From: Lachnospiraceae bacterium
GTDB lineage: Bacteria > Bacillota > Clostridia > Lachnospirales > Lachnospiraceae
Assembly: GCA_017396145.1 (NCBI GenBank)
Contig: JAFQMS010000018.1
Coordinates: 1-35,827 of the forward strand
Reading direction: 5' to 3'
DNA: 35,827 nt
How positions within the stretch are numbered: the first letter of the stretch is position 1; every line of letters begins with the position of its first letter. Of this stretch, positions 2,490 through 12,527 are shown piece after piece. The notes below the pieces were generated by a model. That model saw nothing but the letters and a program-made list of their open reading frames with translations. It had not been told where the DNA came from and did no database searches. A program made the position numbers and the translations under genes.

Positions 2490-2736
2490 ACTGGAGACTC
2501 GGTTTTTGTGGAAAGTCTGTCAGGGAGAATGCGTCGTGGACTGAAAGCGCATTTGAGACGAGTAGTAAGCTTGGGAACACTCCGATATGAATTAGTTGAA
2601 TATTGAAAAGTGGATGCTTTAAGTGCTATATGTATTAACGATAGTGCTTGTGCTGGCATCAAAGCGGGTGGCACCGCGGGTTAATTATTTAGTTTACTCG
2701 TCCCGGGAATATAGCGATATATTCCCGGGATTTTTT
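2490..2736 (+). promoter_or_regulatory. T-box riboswitch, probably Asn-tRNA sensing
   Basis: T-box leaders read uncharged tRNA and switch between an antiterminator and a terminator. The diagnostic T-box GGGTGGCACCGCGGG lies at 2666-2680. Within it TGGC complements a tRNA 3' end with discriminator G, as in tRNA-Asn, -Asp and -Glu. The terminator is a 12-bp inverted repeat with arms TCCCGGGAATAT (2701-2712) and 2719-2730, followed by TTTTTT (2731-2736). In stem I, GGAG (2493-2496) pairs with CTCC (2580-2583). The probable specifier loop reads GGGAACA (2573-2579), giving AAC (Asn) followed by the expected purine and overlapped by GAA (Glu). The distal AGGGAGA and hairpin at 2522-2555 also fit stem I. 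T-box identity is certain; the codon choice is an inference. It controls aspS-gatC, the gatA-like gene and gatB. Confidence 0.92.
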
Positions 2737-2824
2737 AATTGCATGGGAAAGTTGAAGCACTTTTTGCAGCAATTAATAGCGCTCTATAAAAAGAACGCAA
2801 AAATAAAATTATAGGAGGCATACT

Positions 2825-4900
2825 ATGTACAGAACTCTATTTTGTAACGACATTTGTGATGAACATATTGGTCAGACTGTAGAACTTGCAGGATGGGTTG
2901 ATGTTGTTCGTGACCATGGTGGTGTTATTTTTATTGATTTGCGTGACTACACAGGAGTTACTCAGGTGGTTGTTCACAATGAAGAATTACTTAAGAATGT
3001 TAATCGTGAGACAGTTATTACTGTAAAGGGTGTAGTTGAAAAGCGTGACCCTGATACTGTTAATATGAAGATTGCAACAGGTTATGTTGAACTTGTAGCG
3101 GATACCTTAAAGGTGCTTGGCAAGAGCCGCAATATGCTACCTTTTGAAGTTAGAAGTTCTCATTTAAGCAAAGACGAACTTCGTCTTAAATATCGTTATC
3201 TTGACCTACGTAATCCAAAGAACCATGATAACATAGTTATGCGTTCAAAGATTATTCGTTATATGAGAAATAAGATGGAAGAAAAGAACTTCCTTGATAT
3301 GCAGACTCCTATTCTTACTGCATCATCTCCGGAAGGTGCAAGAGACTTCCTTGTGCCAAGCCGTAAGCATCCAGGTAAGTTCTATGCATTGCCACAGGCA
3401 CCACAGCAGTTTAAACAGCTTTTAATGGTGTCTGGCTTCGATAGATATTTTCAGATTGCACCTTGCTTTAGAGATGAGGATGCAAGAGCTGACCGTTCTC
3501 CTGGTGAATTCTATCAGCTTGACTTTGAGATGGCATTTGCAACTCAGGAAGAAGTTCTTGAAGTATGTGAAGATGTTATGTACAACACCTTCAAAGAGTT
3601 TTCAGATAAAAAGATTACAGATAGACCTTTTAGACGAATCACATATGCTGAGTCAATGATGAAATACGGTTCAGATAAGCCGGACCTTCGTAACCCGCTT
3701 ATCATCTGTGACCTTACAGACTTCTTTGCAGATGTGGATTTCCCAGCGTTTAAGGGTAAACCAGTTCGTGGTATTGTGGCTGACTGTGCAGGAAAATCTA
3801 AGAAGTTCTTCGAAGATTCTCTTAAGTTTGCTACATCAGCAGAGGTTGGTCTTGGTGGTCTTGGTTACATCACTCTTAAAGAGGGCGTGTTTGCAGGTCC
3901 TATCGCTAAATTCTTATCAGATGAGAAGAAGGCTGAGATTATAGAAATCACAGGGGTTAAAGAAGGAGAGACTTTATTCTTTATCTGTGATGATAAGAAG
4001 AACGATACAGAAAAGAAGGCTGGACACATTCGTTCATGGCTTGCAGGCAAAGACCAGCTTGATTTAATTAAAGATGATGCATTTGAATTCTGCTTTATCG
4101 TTGATTTCCCAATGTACGAAATCGATGAAGAGACAGGAGATACAATATTTACTCATAACCCATTCTCAATGCCTCAGGGCGGAATGGATGCTCTTTTAGG
4201 TGACGATCCTACTAAAGTTTTAGCTTACCAGTATGACCTTGTTTGTAATGGTATTGAGCTTGCTTCCGGTGCTGTTCGTAACCACGATATTGACATTATG
4301 AAGAAGGCATTTGAGATTGCCGGATATTCAGAGGAAGAACTTAAGACAAGATTCAATGCTCTTTATACTGCATTCCAGTATGGTGCTCCACCACATGCAG
4401 GTATGGCACCAGGTGTTGACCGTACTGTTATGCTCCTTACAGGGGAAGAGAAGATTCTTGAGGTTATTGCATTCCCACTTAATGGTAATGCACAGGATTT
4501 ACTTCTTGGCGCACCAAGTGAGGTTACTAACCAGCAGTTAGAGGATGTACATTTACTTGGAAATACAAGTGCTTTAGCGGGTCGTGGAGTGCCAAGTGGT
4601 GGTAATAAATCGCGTACAGAAAAACGTTCAACCTTCTCTAATGACCAGCAGCTTAATCAGTTGTCATTAACTGAAGCAGAGGATGGCGATATGCAGAGTA
4701 TCTTTGCAAGCATGAAGGAGCATGAAGCGGCTTTAACAAGAATTGATACTGAAAATGTTGAAGAAATGATTTACGTTATGCCTATGACCAACGTTCTTCG
4801 TGAAGACAAGAGAGTGCAGAATTTCTCAAGAGAAAGTCTCTTAGAGGGTGCTCCACAGCGTAGTGAAGACAGTTGGCAGGTGCCACGTCTTGTGAAATAG
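2825..4900 (+). CDS. aspS-gatC: Aspartyl-tRNA synthetase fused to GatC (probably non-discriminating)
   Basis: At 691 residues this is about 100 longer than bacterial AspRS. Residues 1-about 585 are a bacterial-type class II AspRS: an N-terminal OB-fold, motif 2 ([10 protein letters not shown]), a GAD-type insertion around residues 290-420, and motif 3 ([13 protein letters not shown]). The anticodon-binding domain has RDHGGVIF. Its histidine is the residue linked to non-discriminating AspRS, which charges both tRNA-Asp and tRNA-Asn; discriminating enzymes such as that of E. coli have leucine there. After a polar linker, residues about 604-691 are a complete GatC, with [23 protein letters not shown] and a VPRLVK end. 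GatC normally clamps GatA to GatB. The fusion would tether charging of Asp-tRNA-Asn to its amidation. AGGAGG precedes the ATG; the gatA-like gene follows 18 bases on. Confidence 0.92.
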
Positions 4901-4918
4901 TAAAGGAGGTGCGTTAGA

Positions 4919-6100
4919 ATGGAATTATATTCAGTAAAATTATCGGATAAAGGAACTGTAGCCGTTGACGACACTATCCTTGTTAAAGGTGTGGTTACAA
5001 GTGCAGGTTCACATATATTAGAAGGCTTCAAGCCATTATTTAGTGCAGAGGCAGTTAGCCGTCTTGAAAATGCAGGCTATGAAATCGCAGGAAAGACTCA
5101 TGTTGGCGAGTTTGGTCTTGATTTAGTTGGTGAGTTCTCATACTATGGCGAGAAAGATGAAGACCTTAAGGGTGCAGCAGCAACTTTAGTTGCAAATGGT
5201 GAAGTAAAAGCAGCCTTAGGTGTAGATATGAATGGAGCAACACGCCGTAGTGCAGCTTTGGCTGGAGTGGATTTCCTTAAGCCAACTTATGGAACTGTAT
5301 CTCGTTATGGAATTATCTCTTGTGCATCATCTGGTGAACAGATGGGTGTGTATGCTGCAAATGCAGATGAAATCAAAGAAGTAATGAGTGTAATTGCCGG
5401 ACATGATGAAAAGGATGGAACAAGCCTTAAGGAAGAATACGAGTTTAATGCAGATGAAGCGATAGCTGGAAAGAAAGTATGCATCGTTAAAGAATTACTT
5501 GAAAAGGCATCAGATGATGTTAAGGCAAATGTACTTGCCTATGCTGATAAACTTCGTGCTAATGGCGTAGTGGTTGAGGAAGTATCCTTTGATATTGTGG
5601 ATGCAGCCAATACAACATGGCAGATTCTTATGACCGCTGAGACCTGCAACAATGTGTCTCGCTATGACGGTGTTAAGTATGGTCATCGCGCAGCAGATTA
5701 TAAGAATATAGATGAATTATATGTAAACACAAGAACTGAAGGATTTAATTTCCTTACAAAAGCAGTTATTTTATATGGTTCAGATACTTTATCTAAGAAT
5801 CGTTATGAGTCTTGCTATGGTAAGGCACTTAAGGTTCGCCGTGTTGTTGCAGAAAGATTTGAAGACCTTATGAAGTCTTATGATGCAGTACTTACTCCAG
5901 TATGCAGCCAGAGTGCATATAAGGCATATGACATTAAGGATGCATTTATGAAAGTGTTTGAAGAAAGCGTATTTACATGCGTTCCAAACCTTATTGGAAC
6001 TCCTGCTTTAGTAAGTGGTGGAGTACAGCTTATGGGTGGACAGTTTGCAGAAAATACTCTTTTAAGTCTTGCAAAAAGCGTGGAAAGGGCAGGTGAATAG
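4919..6100 (+). CDS. GatA-like amidase homologue lacking the catalytic triad
   Basis: GatA normally hydrolyses glutamine and channels ammonia to GatB, using a Lys / cis-Ser / Ser triad. This protein has 393 residues against about 485, and the missing part is the N-terminal helical region. The rest aligns through KGVVTSAGSHILEG, AGYEIAGKTHVGEF, LKPTYGTVSRYG, IAGHDEKDGTS and the C-terminal YGKALKVRRVV. Where GatA has IAIKDN this protein has VAVDDT, so Lys becomes Asp17. The GGSSGGS loop is replaced by a segment ending LKGAAA. GSDTGGSIR, holding the nucleophile, reads GVDMNGATR. The frame is uninterrupted. GGAGG lies 9 bases before the ATG, so a missed upstream start is unlikely. I read it as a conserved-looking pseudo-amidase that may keep a structural role with GatC and GatB, rather than a decayed gene. 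Confidence 0.88.
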   Translation: MELYSVKLSDKGTVAVDDTILVKGVVTSAGSHILEGFKPLFSAEAVSRLENAGYEIAGKTHVGEFGLDLVGEFSYYGEKDEDLKGAAATLVANGEVKAALGVDMNGATRRSAALAGVDFLKPTYGTVSRYGIISCASSGEQMGVYAANADEIKEVMSVIAGHDEKDGTSLKEEYEFNADEAIAGKKVCIVKELLEKASDDVKANVLAYADKLRANGVVVEEVSFDIVDAANTTWQILMTAETCNNVSRYDGVKYGHRAADYKNIDELYVNTRTEGFNFLTKAVILYGSDTLSKNRYESCYGKALKVRRVVAERFEDLMKSYDAVLTPVCSQSAYKAYDIKDAFMKVFEESVFTCVPNLIGTPALVSGGVQLMGGQFAENTLLSLAKSVERAGE

Positions 6101-6102
6101 TT

Positions 6103-7524
6103 ATGAAATATGAGATAGTTATTGGACTTGAAACTCACGTAGAACTTAATACAGAATCAAAGATTTTCTGTTCATGCGGTGGACATTCATCGGCTAAAGA
6201 GCCTAATGACTGTGTATGCCCAGCTTGTAGTGGTATGCCGGGTATGCTTCCTGTAATGAATAAAAGAGTAGTTGAACTTGCAGTTACAGCAGGTCTTATG
6301 CTTAACTGTGATATTAGCAGATATACTACATTTGATAAGAAGAATTATTACTATCCGGACCTTCCATGTGCATATCAGATTACTCAGCTTAATCACCCAA
6401 TATGTACTAACGGATGTGTTACATTAAAGACATCAGAAGGTACTCGTGATATCCATATTAAGCAGATTCATATGGAAGAGGATGCTGGTAAATTAGTTCA
6501 CGTTGGAAAGGCTTCACTTGTTGACTTTAACCGTACCAGTGTGCCGCTTATTGAGATTGTTACTCAACCGGATTTTAGAAGTGCTGAAGAGGTGCTTGTA
6601 TATCTTAATAAACTAAAATCAATGTTTCGTTCAAGCGGTATTTCAGAGTGTGAAGAAGGCGCAATGCGTTGTGATGTTAACATTTCTGTCCGTCCGGAAG
6701 GAAGCGAGCAGTTTGGTGTTCGTACAGAGATTAAGAATATGGCTTCATTCGAGGCTATTGAGCGTGCTATTCGTTATGAAGCACAGCGTCATATTGATGC
6801 AATTGAGTTTGAAACAGAAGAACTCGTTCAGGAAACAAGAAGATTTGATGACGCTACAGGTAAGACCTTTGCAATGCGTAACAAAGAGACAGAAGCGGAT
6901 TATCGTTACTTCCCTGATGCTAATTTGATGCCAATCATTATTGATGATGCATGGTTAGAAGAGATTAAGGCTAATATGCCGGAAGCTGTTGATGCTAAGG
7001 CTGATGCTTACAGAGAAGCAGGAATTTCTGAGAAAGAGATTGATATGCTTATCCAGAACCATAAGGCAAACAAGCTTCTTGATGATGTGGTAGAGATGGG
7101 AACAACAGCTAAAAATGCAGCAGGCTGGATTCTTACAGACTGTGCAGGTGTACTTCGTAAGAACGGTAAACTTCTTGGAGACCTTGAGATTAGCGCAGAT
7201 GATTTATTTGCAATAATTAAGATGGTTGATGAGGGCGTAAGCAGACTTAATGGTAGAAAGATTCTTACAGCAGTTATGGAAGAGGGCGTAGACCCTGTTG
7301 CATATTGCAAGGACAATGGATTTGATGCTAAGGTTGATACATCTACTATTGAAGCTGTCGTTGACAGAGTACTTGCAAAAAATGCTCAGGCAGTTAACGA
7401 CTATAAGAATGGTAAAGAAAAAGCTAAGCAGGCATTGTTTGGCGCTTGTATGAGAGAACTTAAGAATACAGGAGATATTGCTTTAATTAGAGAACTTCTT
7501 GACAGTAAACTTGCTAATTTTTAG
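6103..7524 (+). CDS. gatB: Asp-tRNA(Asn)/Glu-tRNA(Gln) amidotransferase subunit B
   Basis: GatB phosphorylates the Asp or Glu esterified to tRNA and transfers ammonia to it. The 473 residues match the usual length. Near the N-terminus are VIGLETHVEL and the cysteine group CSC...CVCPAC of zinc-binding bacterial GatB, then MPGMLPVMN. The kinase core keeps KNYYYPDLP, HMEEDAGK, DFNRTSVPLIEIVT and MRCDVNIS, followed by QETRRFDD and DYRYFPD. The C-terminal helical and YqeY-like tail (about residues 330-473) includes VNDYKNGKEKAKQALFG. All landmarks I know are present, in contrast to the preceding gatA-like gene. The start codon lies 2 bases after the upstream stop, implying translational coupling. 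A hairpin at 7570-7599 ends the operon. Confidence 0.95.
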   Translation: MKYEIVIGLETHVELNTESKIFCSCGGHSSAKEPNDCVCPACSGMPGMLPVMNKRVVELAVTAGLMLNCDISRYTTFDKKNYYYPDLPCAYQITQLNHPICTNGCVTLKTSEGTRDIHIKQIHMEEDAGKLVHVGKASLVDFNRTSVPLIEIVTQPDFRSAEEVLVYLNKLKSMFRSSGISECEEGAMRCDVNISVRPEGSEQFGVRTEIKNMASFEAIERAIRYEAQRHIDAIEFETEELVQETRRFDDATGKTFAMRNKETEADYRYFPDANLMPIIIDDAWLEEIKANMPEAVDAKADAYREAGISEKEIDMLIQNHKANKLLDDVVEMGTTAKNAAGWILTDCAGVLRKNGKLLGDLEISADDLFAIIKMVDEGVSRLNGRKILTAVMEEGVDPVAYCKDNGFDAKVDTSTIEAVVDRVLAKNAQAVNDYKNGKEKAKQALFGACMRELKNTGDIALIRELLDSKLANF

Positions 7525-7569
7525 AAGTGATAAATATTCATTGAAAATAATAAAGCAATTATTGTACAC

Positions 7570-7604
7570 AAAACAGGAGAGATGTGCCTCTCCTGTTTTG
7601 TTGT
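7570..7604 (+). terminator. Terminator after gatB
   Basis: Arms AAAACAGGAGAG (7570-7581) and CTCTCCTGTTTT (7588-7599) pair perfectly with a 6-base loop. The T-run lies within the 3' arm and continues as GTTGTTT. It closes the aspS-gatC operon. Confidence 0.75.
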
Positions 7605-7720
7605 TTAGACTTCATTTTGTAAAGAGATTTTTGCTATACTTTGGTTAGAGAAAAAGTTATAATATATTATATGATTTATGTATCGATGGGCATTACTATA
7701 AGATAAAGGAATGATTTATC

Positions 7721-10700
7721 ATGAAGCAAAAAAAGATTAGAAGAATAATAGCATACCTAATGATAGTAGTTATAGGTATCCAGGCATTTTCATATGTTTC
7801 CCAAAATGGTGAAGCAAAGGCGGATAATGATAAAAGAGTGAATGGGTATTATGATATAGGCTACAAAGCCCCAGTGTTAATTGAAGACGAAGATGTTAAT
7901 TATAAAAGTCCTATATTAAAGGCGATAAGGATTCCTTCAAGTTATAATTCTAATGAGAAGGGACATGTTACTAGTGTTAAAAATCAGGGTATGCTAGGAA
8001 CATGTTGGGCATTTGCTGCAATTTCATCAATGGAGTCTTATGCTATAACTCATGGCTTGGTGGAGAGTGCTGCTGATATTGATTTGTCAGAGTATGCATT
8101 GGCAACTATGACTTATGAAGATAGTACATTTTCAGATGCAACAGGTACTACTACGGGGGATGTATCTTCAACAACAGATATATATAATGATTTGGTTAGT
8201 GGTGGAAATGATAATTATGTTTTCAAAACATTAACTAAATGGGCGGGAGTTTTCAATGAAAGCGATGCACCATATAATCATAGTGGAAATACCTGCGTAG
8301 TTTTTGATAAGTCAAAAGTAAGTTATATATTAACGGGACAATACTTTATTAATATGGCTAATGTGAATTATGTAAAAAGGGCTATTATGGAAAATGGAGG
8401 AGTGACATCTTATTACAATGCTGATTCTGAGTATTCAAATTCAGAAGCAAACCGAATAGAATACTATCACTATACTTATAAAGATACATATGTAAATCAT
8501 GCTATAACATTGGTAGGATGGGATGATAGTATTCCAAAAGAAAAGTTTTCTATTGTCGACAGTGAGGGAAATACTCATACGCCATCTTCAGATGGAGCAT
8601 GGTTAATAAAGAACAGTTGGGGAACTTATTATGGTGACAACGGTTATATGTGGATATCTTACGAAGATAAGACTATCTGTAATGCAACAGCATGCGTATA
8701 TGAGATTGCGCCAAAGTCAGATTACACACATAACTATCAACATGATGGGGCTAGCATTTTTGGCAACTTTGCAGCATTTAAAGCTAAGGATTATGCTAAT
8801 GTCTTTACTGTAAAGGGTAATAATTCCCAGTATATTAAAGCGGTGTCAATGGGTGTGGAAAGTCCAAATACTTCTTATAGTATTCAGATATACAAGAATC
8901 CTACCGAGGATATGCCAGAGAGTGGGACTGCTCTTCTTAGCGAAAGTTTAGAGGGAAAAACTACATTTCCGGGATACTATACAATACCTCTTGCTGAACC
9001 AGTAAAAGTAGATGTTGGAGATACATTTTCCGTGGTAATAAAATTTGATGAGATTACTAGTATGTCATCAGGAATAAATCAAAAGGTATATGTTGGTGGT
9101 GGTGGCACATCCTTTGCGGTAAATGATTGCGGGGAAAATGAAAGTTACGTTAAGATAGGTGATGCATATAAAGATGTATATGAATATGGTGAGTACTCTG
9201 TAAATCAGTCTAATTTGTGCATAAAGGCATTTACAGTAGATGAAAGCGAAACTGTTAAGTCAAGTAACATTACGTCCATTGCTTCCAACGGAAGTACTAA
9301 TATCAGTATTAGTTGGCAAAAAGTATTGGGTATATCAAGTTATGAACTTTTGAGAGCCACAGAATATAGCGGAGAATATGAAGTGATATATAGTGGTAGT
9401 GATACTTCTTATACGGATGAACAAGTAGAAAAGAATAAGTACTATTACTACAAGGTAAGGTTTTATGATGAAGAAGTGCTTTATGAGTCTAAGGTAAAAG
9501 TGGGAACATTAGAATTAAGAGGAACTGTTATTAGAAAAGCATCCCATGATAGAGGGGGAATTAAAATACAGTGGGATGAGGTTAGTGATATTGCGGGATA
9601 CAAGATATATAGGTCAGAGAATGGAGTGGATTTTGTTCACATTGGAACTGTAACCGGAGAAACTACATACTATGATGAAACGGTTTTATATGACAAGGTA
9701 TATCATTATAAAGTAAAGGTGTATCTAGATGAATTACAAGAGGAATCAGAGGATAGTAATGTTTACAGTCATTCTAAGATAGTTGATATTCCAACTAATT
9801 TTACAGCGGATAATACACAATACGGCAAGATTATGTTGAATTGGGATAGAAATGAAGATGTAGATGGGTACCTGATATATAGAACATATTACGATGCACA
9901 AGGGGTGCAACATGAAACAGAATTCTATAAAGAATTGGAGAAGGGGGCTTCAAGTTGCGTGGTAGATGTAGGTGATTTACCGCCGGGAAAAAATATATCA
10001 TTTTATATTAAAGCATATGTAAATGAAGGCGAAAAACAATACCTAAGTGAAACAAATATAGTAGTAAGTTCCATAGCTTTTCAACCGGTTTCTAATGTGA
10101 AATGGTATGCAAATAACAATATTATCTATGTGAAATGGGATGATTATGTGGTGGCAGGATACACTGTCACAGGTTATTCATTCTTTGCTTATGACAGTGA
10201 AACTGGAGGGAATGTAATAATTAGCAGAGTGCCTACAGATAATTACACATGGAGTTCAAATTTGAATTGTAGAAATGTCTACTATGTAACAGTTCAGGCT
10301 AAAAATGCTATGAATACGATTTTTACACCGGGTCAAACTCCAAGGATTAGAGTTGGTGGTGCTCTTAATGAATTTGCTGTAAATGATATTGAGGATGTAC
10401 AATGTAGTGTGCCTGGTAATGTGGTTCTAGAGGCAACTATGAAGGATGAACTTGTTAATTTTGATTATAAATACCAGTGGTACGAAACTTCAAGTAAAAC
10501 GACGGATGGTGTAGCAATAAATGGGGCGAATAATAAGACATATTCTGTAAATGTGTCAGAAGCAGGAACAAGATATTTTTATTGTGTGGTCACAGGTGAA
10601 TATAATGGGACTAAAAGTGCAACATCCAATGTAGTAACTGTAGTGGGGGTAGAGGATGTAGCGCCAACGAAGAGCCCGCAGCCAACCAAGACTGTAGCAC

Positions 10701-11164
10701 CGACAAAGAGTCCGCAGCCAACCAAGACTGTAGCGCCGACAAAGAGTCCGCAACCAACCAAGACTGTAGCGCCAACGAAGAGTCCGCAGCCAACTAAGAC
10801 TGTAGCGCCAACGAAGAGCCCGCAGCCAACCAAGACTGTAGCACCAACGAAGAGTCCGCAGCCAACCAAGACTGTAGCGCCGACAAAGAGTCCGCAGCCA
10901 ACCAAGACTGTAGTACCGACGAAGAGTCCGCAGCCAACCAAGACTGTAGTACCGACAAAGAGTCCGCAGCCGACGGTTGTTTCTGGAGATGTTAATGGAG
11001 ATGGGAGAGTTAATATTACAGATTTAATTTCGGTGAAGGCTCATATATTGAGAAAGAATAGTTTATCGGGACTTAAACTTACAAGGGGAGACACTAATGG
11101 TGATGGGAAAATCAACATAACAGATTTTATTAGGATAAAGGGATATATTTTAGGCAAGTATTAA
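7721..11164 (+). CDS. Secreted papain-like (C1) cysteine protease with Fn3-like domains and a C-terminal dockerin
   Basis: This 1147-residue exported protein begins with a basic start and a hydrophobic segment (residues 9-26). The C1 peptidase domain spans about 70-320: oxyanion Gln89, nucleophile Cys95 in GTCWAFAA, His260 in VNHAITLVGWDD and Asn298 in WLIKNSWGTYYGDNGY. After it comes a lectin-like beta domain (about 330-510) that follows bacterial C1 peptidases of this kind. Repeated fibronectin type III-like modules follow (about 510-880), then an Ig-like module with KYQWYETSS. A linker has eight full copies and one partial copy of VAPTKSPQPTKT. The C-terminal 64 residues form a type I dockerin with two calcium loops, DVNGDGRVNITD and DTNGDGKINITD. 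The next gene encodes a membrane-anchored cohesin, its probable partner. The substrate is unknown. Confidence 0.92.
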   Translation: MKQKKIRRIIAYLMIVVIGIQAFSYVSQNGEAKADNDKRVNGYYDIGYKAPVLIEDEDVNYKSPILKAIRIPSSYNSNEKGHVTSVKNQGMLGTCWAFAAISSMESYAITHGLVESAADIDLSEYALATMTYEDSTFSDATGTTTGDVSSTTDIYNDLVSGGNDNYVFKTLTKWAGVFNESDAPYNHSGNTCVVFDKSKVSYILTGQYFINMANVNYVKRAIMENGGVTSYYNADSEYSNSEANRIEYYHYTYKDTYVNHAITLVGWDDSIPKEKFSIVDSEGNTHTPSSDGAWLIKNSWGTYYGDNGYMWISYEDKTICNATACVYEIAPKSDYTHNYQHDGASIFGNFAAFKAKDYANVFTVKGNNSQYIKAVSMGVESPNTSYSIQIYKNPTEDMPESGTALLSESLEGKTTFPGYYTIPLAEPVKVDVGDTFSVVIKFDEITSMSSGINQKVYVGGGGTSFAVNDCGENESYVKIGDAYKDVYEYGEYSVNQSNLCIKAFTVDESETVKSSNITSIASNGSTNISISWQKVLGISSYELLRATEYSGEYEVIYSGSDTSYTDEQVEKNKYYYYKVRFYDEEVLYESKVKVGTLELRGTVIRKASHDRGGIKIQWDEVSDIAGYKIYRSENGVDFVHIGTVTGETTYYDETVLYDKVYHYKVKVYLDELQEESEDSNVYSHSKIVDIPTNFTADNTQYGKIMLNWDRNEDVDGYLIYRTYYDAQGVQHETEFYKELEKGASSCVVDVGDLPPGKNISFYIKAYVNEGEKQYLSETNIVVSSIAFQPVSNVKWYANNNIIYVKWDDYVVAGYTVTGYSFFAYDSETGGNVIISRVPTDNYTWSSNLNCRNVYYVTVQAKNAMNTIFTPGQTPRIRVGGALNEFAVNDIEDVQCSVPGNVVLEATMKDELVNFDYKYQWYETSSKTTDGVAINGANNKTYSVNVSEAGTRYFYCVVTGEYNGTKSATSNVVTVVGVEDVAPTKSPQPTKTVAPTKSPQPTKTVAPTKSPQPTKTVAPTKSPQPTKTVAPTKSPQPTKTVAPTKSPQPTKTVAPTKSPQPTKTVVPTKSPQPTKTVVPTKSPQPTVVSGDVNGDGRVNITDLISVKAHILRKNSLSGLKLTRGDTNGDGKINITDFIRIKGYILGKY
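10658..10975 (+). repeat. 36-bp in-frame tandem repeat coding for a Pro/Thr linker
   Basis: Eight full 36-bp units and one 30-bp partial unit each encode V(A/V)PTKSPQPTKT. Units differ mainly by synonymous changes such as CCAACG/CCGACA, with a late Ala to Val change. The repeats join the Ig-like module to the dockerin and probably form an extended, flexible spacer. Copy number is likely to vary between strains. Confidence 0.95.
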
Positions 11165-11195
11165 AAGAACAGAATTGGAAAGGTGGAATGGAACT

Positions 11196-12527
11196 GTGAG
11201 AATAAAGGCTAAATTATTATTTGTACTGGTTGTTATGATGATATGTTTTTATCAGATGAGTAGTGTTGCAATGGGAGCCGGGGCAACAATAGAAGGAACT
11301 AAAACAATAAGAGAGGGAGAAACATTTAAACTGGATATAATAATACCTGAGTCAGGGCAGTATGGTCTGGAGGGTACATTTGATTTTGATGCCAGTAAGG
11401 TTACACTTACAAAAGTTACATCATTAAGAAAAGGATGGAAGGTAGAAACTAATAATAGAGCAATAGTTGCTTATGATGACGCATTGAGCAATCCAACTGC
11501 AAAGAACACAAGGCTTATTTCGGCAACATTTAAAGTGAAAAGTGGTGTATCAGCAGGAGAGGTGATAAGTATTTCTCTTAATGGACTTACAGTGTCAGAT
11601 GGAGTTACTGAAAAACAATATGGGAGTATTAAACATTCTCTTACTGTTGCAAGACCACTTTCCACAGATAATTACATTAAGTCGCTGACAGTGTCAAATG
11701 GTGGAACAATATCGCCTAAATTTGACGGAAAGATTCTTAAGTACAGATTAACAGATGTGGAGTACGATGTTGCATCACTCAAGATTGAAGTTGTTCTCTC
11801 TGACGATAAAGCAAAATACAACATATCCGGCAATAAATTAGTGGTTGGAGAGAATAAGGTTAGTATAAATGTTGTTGCAGAGAACGGAAGTAAACGAACA
11901 TATACTATTTTGGTTAACAGAAAGCAAGATCCTAATTATGTACCATCATCTGAATGTAAACTTAAGGGCATAGATGTGAGTGGTGGACAGTTATCTCCAA
12001 CATTTAATGAAAACATAACAAACTATGTGGTATATATGCCGTTAGAGGAAAGCGGTAAATTATTTGAAATAAATGGAAGTGCAAAAGATAATAAAGCCAA
12101 AGGTGTAACTGGAGATAAAATTGTAAGTCTAAAAGAGGGAAGTAATACTTTAAAGGTTGTATGTACGGCGGAAGACGGTACAAAAAAAGAATACACAGTC
12201 ATTGCGTATGTTATGCCTAAATACAGTGGCAAGTTACCGATAATGGGTAATAACAGCGAAAATGAAGTGCCGGTTAGTACGCTTAAGCCAACAACTACAC
12301 CAGAGCCTGAAGAAACAAATTCGCCTGTAACAACGGATAAACCAGCACAAGAAGATGGAAAAGGAGAAAATAAGGAATATGAAACAGAAAAAAGTGACAA
12401 TAAAAGAGAAGAGATAAGGTTTTCGTTATGGGTAACAATCCTTTTTGTGATGCTAGGAATGGTGGCTGGAATACTAATTGGAGTGTTACTTGTTACAAAA
12501 AAATACAAAAACAAGTCACAAACATAA
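11196..12527 (+). CDS. Membrane-anchored cohesin protein with two cadherin-like beta-sandwich domains
   Basis: The GTG at 11196 was chosen because AGGTGG (11181-11186) precedes it by 9 bases; it gives 443 residues starting MRIKAKLLFVLVV, a signal peptide (about 1-28). Residues about 30-152 fit a cohesin: GETFKLDIIIP, YGLEGTFDFDASKVTL, LISATFKVK and AGEVISISL. Two cadherin-like beta-sandwich domains follow (about 158-242 and 253-338); each begins with a (S/G)I/L...S.G.LSP.F pattern and ends in G.KR/KEYTV. A Pro/Thr/Glu linker leads to a transmembrane helix (about 412-436) and a short basic tail. A cohesin binds a dockerin by calcium-dependent contacts. The dockerin protease ends 31 bases upstream, so this protein probably holds it at the membrane. 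Cohesin identity is by pattern and is less sure than the dockerin. Confidence 0.85.
   Translation: MRIKAKLLFVLVVMMICFYQMSSVAMGAGATIEGTKTIREGETFKLDIIIPESGQYGLEGTFDFDASKVTLTKVTSLRKGWKVETNNRAIVAYDDALSNPTAKNTRLISATFKVKSGVSAGEVISISLNGLTVSDGVTEKQYGSIKHSLTVARPLSTDNYIKSLTVSNGGTISPKFDGKILKYRLTDVEYDVASLKIEVVLSDDKAKYNISGNKLVVGENKVSINVVAENGSKRTYTILVNRKQDPNYVPSSECKLKGIDVSGGQLSPTFNENITNYVVYMPLEESGKLFEINGSAKDNKAKGVTGDKIVSLKEGSNTLKVVCTAEDGTKKEYTVIAYVMPKYSGKLPIMGNNSENEVPVSTLKPTTTPEPEETNSPVTTDKPAQEDGKGENKEYETEKSDNKREEIRFSLWVTILFVMLGMVAGILIGVLLVTKKYKNKSQT

Follow-up and report, generated by a model that had tools for sequence, protein, structure and literature searches.

A family of GatA-like proteins of gut Clostridia, here named psi-GatA, lacks the catalytic Lys and the glutamine-binding residues of canonical GatA and is maintained beside a GatB whose active-site motifs are intact. 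The best explanation, to which we give a probability slightly below 60%, is that the psi operon encodes a glutaminase-less Asp-tRNA(Asn) amidotransferase in which psi-GatA is kept structurally and ammonia comes from elsewhere, most probably as free ammonium. We hold more tentatively, if still as a serious possibility, that a whole amidotransferase lineage has moved off glutamine and onto free ammonia (or a GatD-like partner), with the dead GatA as a structural subunit, and that it is the sole supplier of both Asn-tRNA and Gln-tRNA in at least one genome.

Catalytic residues of the GatA-like protein and its relatives

The window, that is, the whole stretch of 35,827 nucleotides analysed here, is an entire contig (G000:C5) of a 1.38 Mb draft genome that is 58.5% complete. 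A first-pass annotation made from the letters alone had read an AspRS-GatC / GatA / GatB operon in it, which our analysis recovered with gatC, a gatA-like gene and gatB together (Table 1). The psi-gatA frame is indeed open along its full length and is preceded by a good ribosome-binding site (AGGAGG at 4904). Alignment to the canonical GatA encoded elsewhere in this genome (K79, S154, S178) placed an Asp at Lys79 and an Ala at Ser178, and revealed deletion of the cis-Ser loop GGSSGGS, exactly the three losses that had been noticed before; the Ser-cisSer-Lys triad is absent from this protein. Only 16 residues precede the Lys column, versus 78 in 40 of 75 canonical rows, and about 60 N-terminal residues are missing. 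The first-pass annotation had put the truncation at about 65-90 residues. A hidden upstream N-terminus was rejected, since the psi-gatA start codon follows the aspS stop after just 18 bases and the truncation is common to the relatives. Profile scores place psi-GatA within the amidases (Pfam Amidase PF01425, 200 bits, cut-off 27) and below the curated GatA level (TIGR00132, 275 bits versus a cut-off of 481.1), which the canonical GatA of the window genome exceeds with 633 bits. The nearest solved structures are the bacterial GatA chains 3al0 and 2gi3 (1.1e-60).

Table 1. The psi operon of the window and its leader
Feature	Positions	Strand	Description
T-box leader	2493-2737	+	Stem I from 2493; AAC (putative Asn specifier) 2576-2578; antiterminator motif 2666-2679; terminator hairpin from 2702; T run to about 2737
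aspS-gatC fusion	2825-4900	+	Bacterial-type AspRS; Pfam tRNA-synt_2, OB fold, GAD, GatC
psi-GatA	4919-6100	+	393 aa; Asp17 for catalytic Lys, no cis-Ser loop, Ala107 for nucleophile Ser
gatB of psi operon	6103-7524	+	Above the cut-off of three GatB families

Relatives were sought first in 120 genomes of the bacterial family and then by profile searches of 397 genomes of the family and 392 of the order, which yielded psi-GatA in at least 10 and at least 11 genomes, respectively, with two common to both sets and with G434 and G603 assigned by short frames and neighbours instead of score. A contig scan with the closer group gave at least 80 psi loci at 61-79% identity; the record titles of 80 scanned loci name a ruminant host in 56, SIG numbers in 16 and neither in 8. 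Their labels include Clostridia, Lachnospiraceae, Oscillospiraceae and Ruminococcus. Locus counts below refer to the 97 loci collected in all, without the presumed duplicates L215 (of L075) and L233 (of L076) and with L209 and L273, and residue counts to 97 psi proteins of at least 300 aa, with the two duplicates and without L209 (contig edge) and L273 (fragmented). By our own assignment, 85 of the 97 proteins are type I and 12 are type II; four aligned type II proteins are 31-39% identical to that of the window.

PMC4027206 ascribes glutamine binding in GatA to an Arg and an Asp, and catalysis to the Lys-cisSer-Ser set; we transferred the yeast residue roles given there to GatA columns by offset. 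Across the family, Lys79 is found in 0/97 psi proteins against 73/75 canonical rows; two rows of the canonical set lack the Lys column. The cis-Ser (S154) persists in one psi protein versus all 75 canonical rows, a retention that is partly by construction because 67 of these rows were chosen by the motif GGS[SAT]GG. The canonical set also contains some genomes twice (68 distinct ends) and one probable other amidase, L041. The nucleophile Ser178, invariant in the canonical rows (75/75), is kept in 25 of the 97 psi proteins, all of type I, so that the earlier statement that all three residues are lost is exact for the window and does not extend to every member. Beyond what had been seen then, the glutamine site is gone: neither R358 (75/75 canonical rows) nor D425 (72/75) occurs in any of the 97 psi proteins, which leaves them without the glutamine-binding Arg and Asp, and the same holds for Y309 (74/75), which we take to be the glutamine contact Tyr309 of GatA. 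More broadly, of the 130 columns that canonical GatA conserves, psi proteins retain 50 at a frequency of at least 90% and 47 at one of at most 10%.

Type I proteins share innovations of their own, namely Asp at the Lys position (84/85), Trp in place of Y309 and Arg in place of Q181 (85/85 each). These newly conserved residues, along with the 25 proteins that retain Ser178, would fit an amidase that has gained other chemistry, with a different substrate or different catalytic residues. We regard this as very improbable, since the amidase-signature Lys and cis-Ser are gone and the replacements differ between types I and II.

Loss of the catalytic Lys is thus shared by the homologues found downstream of aspS-gatC fusions, as the first-pass annotation had proposed to check, and it comes with selective constraint. 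In 121 type I pairs, restricted to moderate dS and not independent because they share loci, the median dN/dS of psi-GatA was 0.167 (maximum 0.289), compared with 0.081 for GatB and 0.075 for AspRS-GatC. psi-GatA of type I is therefore under purifying selection, and evolves at roughly double the rate of its partners. This constraint led us to reject a single decayed copy, and with the 97 related proteins devoid of the catalytic Lys it upholds the earlier view that this is not ordinary decay; nor do the losses stem from chance or from an error in sequencing. A pseudogene, an assembly error or a mis-called start could be suspected in a draft only 58.5% complete; nevertheless, given purifying selection and a conserved family of 97 loci in which a single copy is fragmented (L273, at the edge of its contig), we consider this explanation already refuted.

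Phylogenies of both subunits point in the same direction. A single branch (100/100) split 21 psi from 20 canonical sequences in the GatA tree, and 21 psi-operon GatBs were likewise separated from 19 canonical ones by one supported branch. Both trees are unrooted and built on 21 hand-chosen psi loci, L035 shifts between them, and the long psi branches of the GatA tree, which raised a program warning, limit inferences inside it. The shared split runs counter to repeated decay of canonical copies and supports, without proving, an old, co-inherited complex that would have a single origin.

Operon partners and the T-box leader

gatB adjoins psi-gatA in 94/97 loci, the remaining three ending at a contig edge, and an operon-type AspRS is present in 90, 78 of them fused to GatC. 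In the window fusion, Pfam delimits the GatC domain to residues 615-685 (4667-4879). Among the departures from this layout, aspS lies on the opposite strand in two type II loci (L036 and L079) and is not seen in L078, about 1.8 kb separate gatC from psi-gatA in L211, and contig ends hide parts of other loci. Downstream of the window operon, two proteins were named by eye. One would be a secreted papain-like peptidase (7721-11164) that carries a PTKSPQPTKTVA tandem repeat besides fibronectin-like repeats and ends in a dockerin-like segment at its C-terminus; the other, next to it, looks like a membrane-anchored cohesin-like protein with cadherin-like repeats (11175-12527), possibly the cell-surface partner of the dockerin-bearing peptidase.

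The Mg and ATP residues E15, H17, E129, E130, E157, N201 and S203, matched by motif spacing to those of the yeast enzyme in PMC4027206, are each conserved in 95% or more of the 92 psi-operon GatBs. Six canonical GatBs share 191 invariant columns; the psi-operon proteins preserve 108 of these at a frequency of at least 95% and 24 at one of at most 10%, E125 for example being replaced by Q in 99%. In L220 the psi-operon GatB extends into an 834-aa frame (7188-9692) with 360 extra residues.

The operon AspRS carries the OB-fold motif RDHG in 86 of 88 frames, the other two lacking that region. We take the His of this motif to mark a non-discriminating AspRS. The window genome encodes both an operon enzyme with RDHGG and a second AspRS with RNKGG. 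Among the other AspRSs, the pattern matched 9 of 11 loci: seven have RNKGG (one of them from G120, which has no psi-GatA), one has RNLGS (G096), and the ninth has RDHGG (L118 of G097, a genome in which the psi locus begins right at the edge of a contig).

A T-box leader precedes the window operon. Rfam RF00230 scored it at 32 bits (E 2.2e-5), short of the gathering score of 93, and a search at the gathering threshold returned no T-box. The antiterminator motif occurs in 78/97 psi loci. In an alignment of the 75 leaders that contain an AGTAGTA or GAGTAG anchor (L038, L212 and L243 are among those left out for lack of it), AAC was invariant (75/75) and followed by A in 63 and G in 12. The triplet sits in an internal loop of the predicted stem I, flanked by predicted helices with changes on both sides, and we read it as the probable Asn specifier of the T-box. 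This anchored alignment replaced a noisy alignment-free search for the closing helix (CAC 27, AAC 22, others fewer; n=68). Upstream of 2511 in L038 of G013, the antiterminator was detected without the AAC-containing stem I pattern, as if the stem I half of this T-box had been lost or changed.

The link to Asn is not peculiar to psi operons. Of 40 canonical gatCAB loci, hand-chosen for this bacterial family from the profile-search list, 23 have the T-box motif, 18 an AspRS2-like gene close by and 9 an operon-type AspRS. A 2008 survey (PMC2494555) reports that the amidotransferase genes of the genomes it covered were not preceded by a T-box.

Coexisting aminoacyl-tRNA routes and possible sources of ammonia

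Combining these features, uncharged tRNA(Asn) would switch the psi operon on via the T-box, and AspRS, given its presumed specificity, would charge tRNA(Asn) with Asp. The fused GatC would tether this enzyme to GatB and the GatA-like subunit, and GatB, if active as its motifs suggest, would activate (phosphorylate) Asp-tRNA(Asn) with ATP and then amidate it. psi-GatA, probably unable to hydrolyse glutamine any longer, would hold GatC and GatB together as a putative scaffold and perhaps form the ammonia entrance. Ammonia would reach GatB from outside the former glutaminase site, most probably as free ammonium or else from a partner. Free ammonium is plentiful in the gut, and ammonia is high in the rumen and hindgut. 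For the related yeast enzyme, PMC4027206 records that ammonium chloride is usable as a donor and that truncating the domain encircling the glutaminase site raised the ammonium chloride-dependent activity.

The search for other routes in the window genome, proposed along with the original observation, uncovered all three enzymes sought: a second, canonical gatC-gatA-gatB on another contig, an AsnRS (636 bits) and a GlnRS (717 bits). The original interpretation consequently stands as regards a maintained, catalytically dead GatA next to a GatB with intact motifs, and has to be qualified in that the psi operon is an extra route in this bacterium. Canonical GatA is likewise found in 8/10 psi genomes, the window's included; in these genomes the set might have a regulatory role or no activity. 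AsnRS scored above the cut-off in 13 of 50 psi genomes (3/10 plus 10/40), many of them incomplete drafts; the count was made in psi genomes and, among those without psi-GatA, in G120. An AspRS2 is encoded in G013 (above the cut-off) and G324 (73% identical), and AspRS2-like matches of 200-255 bits appear in G735, G609, G603, G728, G732 and G733.

Such coexistence could mean that the psi complex borrows ammonia or subunits, with canonical GatA joining AspRS-GatC and GatB and psi-GatA acting as a competitor or regulator. We consider this unlikely: psi-GatA is accompanied by a GatB lineage of its own, no canonical GatA was found in G096 or G087, and among the matches listed G418, G609, G512 and G636 gave a psi GatA only. 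G096 is the most telling of these genomes (99% complete, 1% contaminated, 30 contigs). Its only GatB is that of the psi operon, and no canonical GatA, AsnRS, AspRS2-like match or GlnRS above the cut-off was found in it. Besides psi-GatA it encodes one other amidase, in which inspection revealed a signal peptide and, at the C-terminus, a membrane segment, two traits that led us to reject it as a hidden GatA. With no other enzyme for Asn-tRNA or Gln-tRNA found in G096, the psi set must supply both there unless the assembly misses genes; ammonia from another source, the most economical reading in general, is nearly forced for this genome. No AsnRS above the cut-off was found in G418 (90% complete) or G636 (71%), one is present in G609 and G512, and G087 (96% complete) has the psi set only, yet both AsnRS and GlnRS.

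Alternatively, the complex might not amidate at all, and bind or hold Asp-tRNA(Asn), or sense asparagine or ammonia. The dead glutaminase and glutamine site and the canonical routes coexisting in many genomes would agree with this, which we nonetheless judge quite unlikely in view of the retained active-site motifs of GatB, the strong constraint on this subunit and the lack of another Asn-tRNA or Gln-tRNA enzyme among those found in G096. An AlaX-like tRNA-editing gene, detected by tblastn in the flanks of 28/97 psi loci versus 0/40 canonical loci of similar span and unmatched lineages, with queries taken from psi loci (Fisher 3.1e-5), could also fit the handling of mischarged tRNA by such a complex. 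Under the amidotransferase reading, its product might instead clear Asp-tRNA(Asn) that escapes amidation. Clustering placed the gene downstream of the psi operon, in the same orientation, in 27 loci, and the family is named from a single copy, L220:9693-10850, with tRNA_SAD and DHHA1 domains.

The flanks also contain a candidate partner. A GatD-like gene of the asparaginase family occurs near 24/97 psi loci and 0/40 canonical loci (Fisher p 1.2e-4, under the same control with psi-locus queries and unmatched lineages), in four arrangements over 21 clustered loci (19 within 400 bases), which suggests repeated association. The G013 copy has the archaeal GatD 2d6f as its nearest solved protein (2e-12). 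A dedicated GatD-like protein could accordingly deliver ammonia in a GatB/GatD-like hybrid with psi-GatA as adaptor, an option that we consider unlikely. Hydrolysis by these proteins is doubtful because the catalytic Lys is gone in all 22 aligned nearby copies (Gln in 21, Pro in one), the column being Lys in four other asparaginases of G238 and G392, which weakened this neighbour as a certain ammonia source. Three tested copies fell under the NCBIfam cut-offs for asparaginase and GatD; that of G013 scored 80.7 and 78.2 bits against curated GatD values of 310 and 324. Furthermore, the gene was not found in the window or in the flanks of 73/97 loci, some of them cut by contig ends, and had no match at E 0.001 in G000 (58.5% complete), G087 (96%) or G386 (90%). 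The copies without Lys form a distinct GatD-like asparaginase subfamily (L038:7261-8355, L077:1749-2912, L223:2768-3877 and others), which keeps the Thr motifs GGT and HGTDT.

A glutaminase-less amidotransferase remains our preferred reading. Counted against it are the canonical GatA in eight of ten psi genomes, the T-box in 23 of 40 canonical loci, the AsnRS and GlnRS of G087, the proteins that retain Ser178 (25/97), the faster evolution of psi-GatA, the 24 of 191 GatB columns that changed and the incompleteness of the drafts.

Relation to known amidotransferases

GatCAB has been described as making its own ammonia from glutamine and channelling it to GatB. If our reading holds, an old and constrained family with a dead glutaminase half would represent the two halves of GatCAB uncoupled in nature, with translation of Asn codons, and perhaps that of Gln codons in G096, tied to the ammonia supply. 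It would also advise caution against annotating psi-gatA genes as ordinary gatA. We recognised no description of a GatA with these losses in the open-licence literature searched, which is weak evidence of absence.

The psi set resembles canonical GatCAB (solved GatA 3al0, 2gi3 and 2df4) in its GatC domain, its GatA-like protein and a GatB with motifs kept, and many canonical operons of the same bacterial family likewise have AspRS and a T-box nearby. It differs in lacking the Ser-cisSer-Lys triad, the glutamine-binding residues and about 60 N-terminal residues, in the fusion of GatC to a bacterial-type AspRS (78/97), and in the separate lineages of both GatA and GatB. An AspRS with a C-terminal GatC is shared with the bifunctional AspRS/GatC family NF009460, against which the window fusion scored 456 bits for a cut-off of 1379. 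Saad et al. reportedly described in 2012 a T-box controlled tRNA-dependent amidation operon of Clostridium acetobutylicum with a canonical GatA. A T-box precedes the amidation genes in both systems, but the psi operon has a dead GatA and a GatC that forms part of its AspRS. Archaeal GatDE offers a further parallel through the GatD-like gene near 24/97 psi loci and through GatE, a relative of GatB, but the psi set has GatB, not GatE, and its GatD-like copies are devoid of the catalytic Lys.
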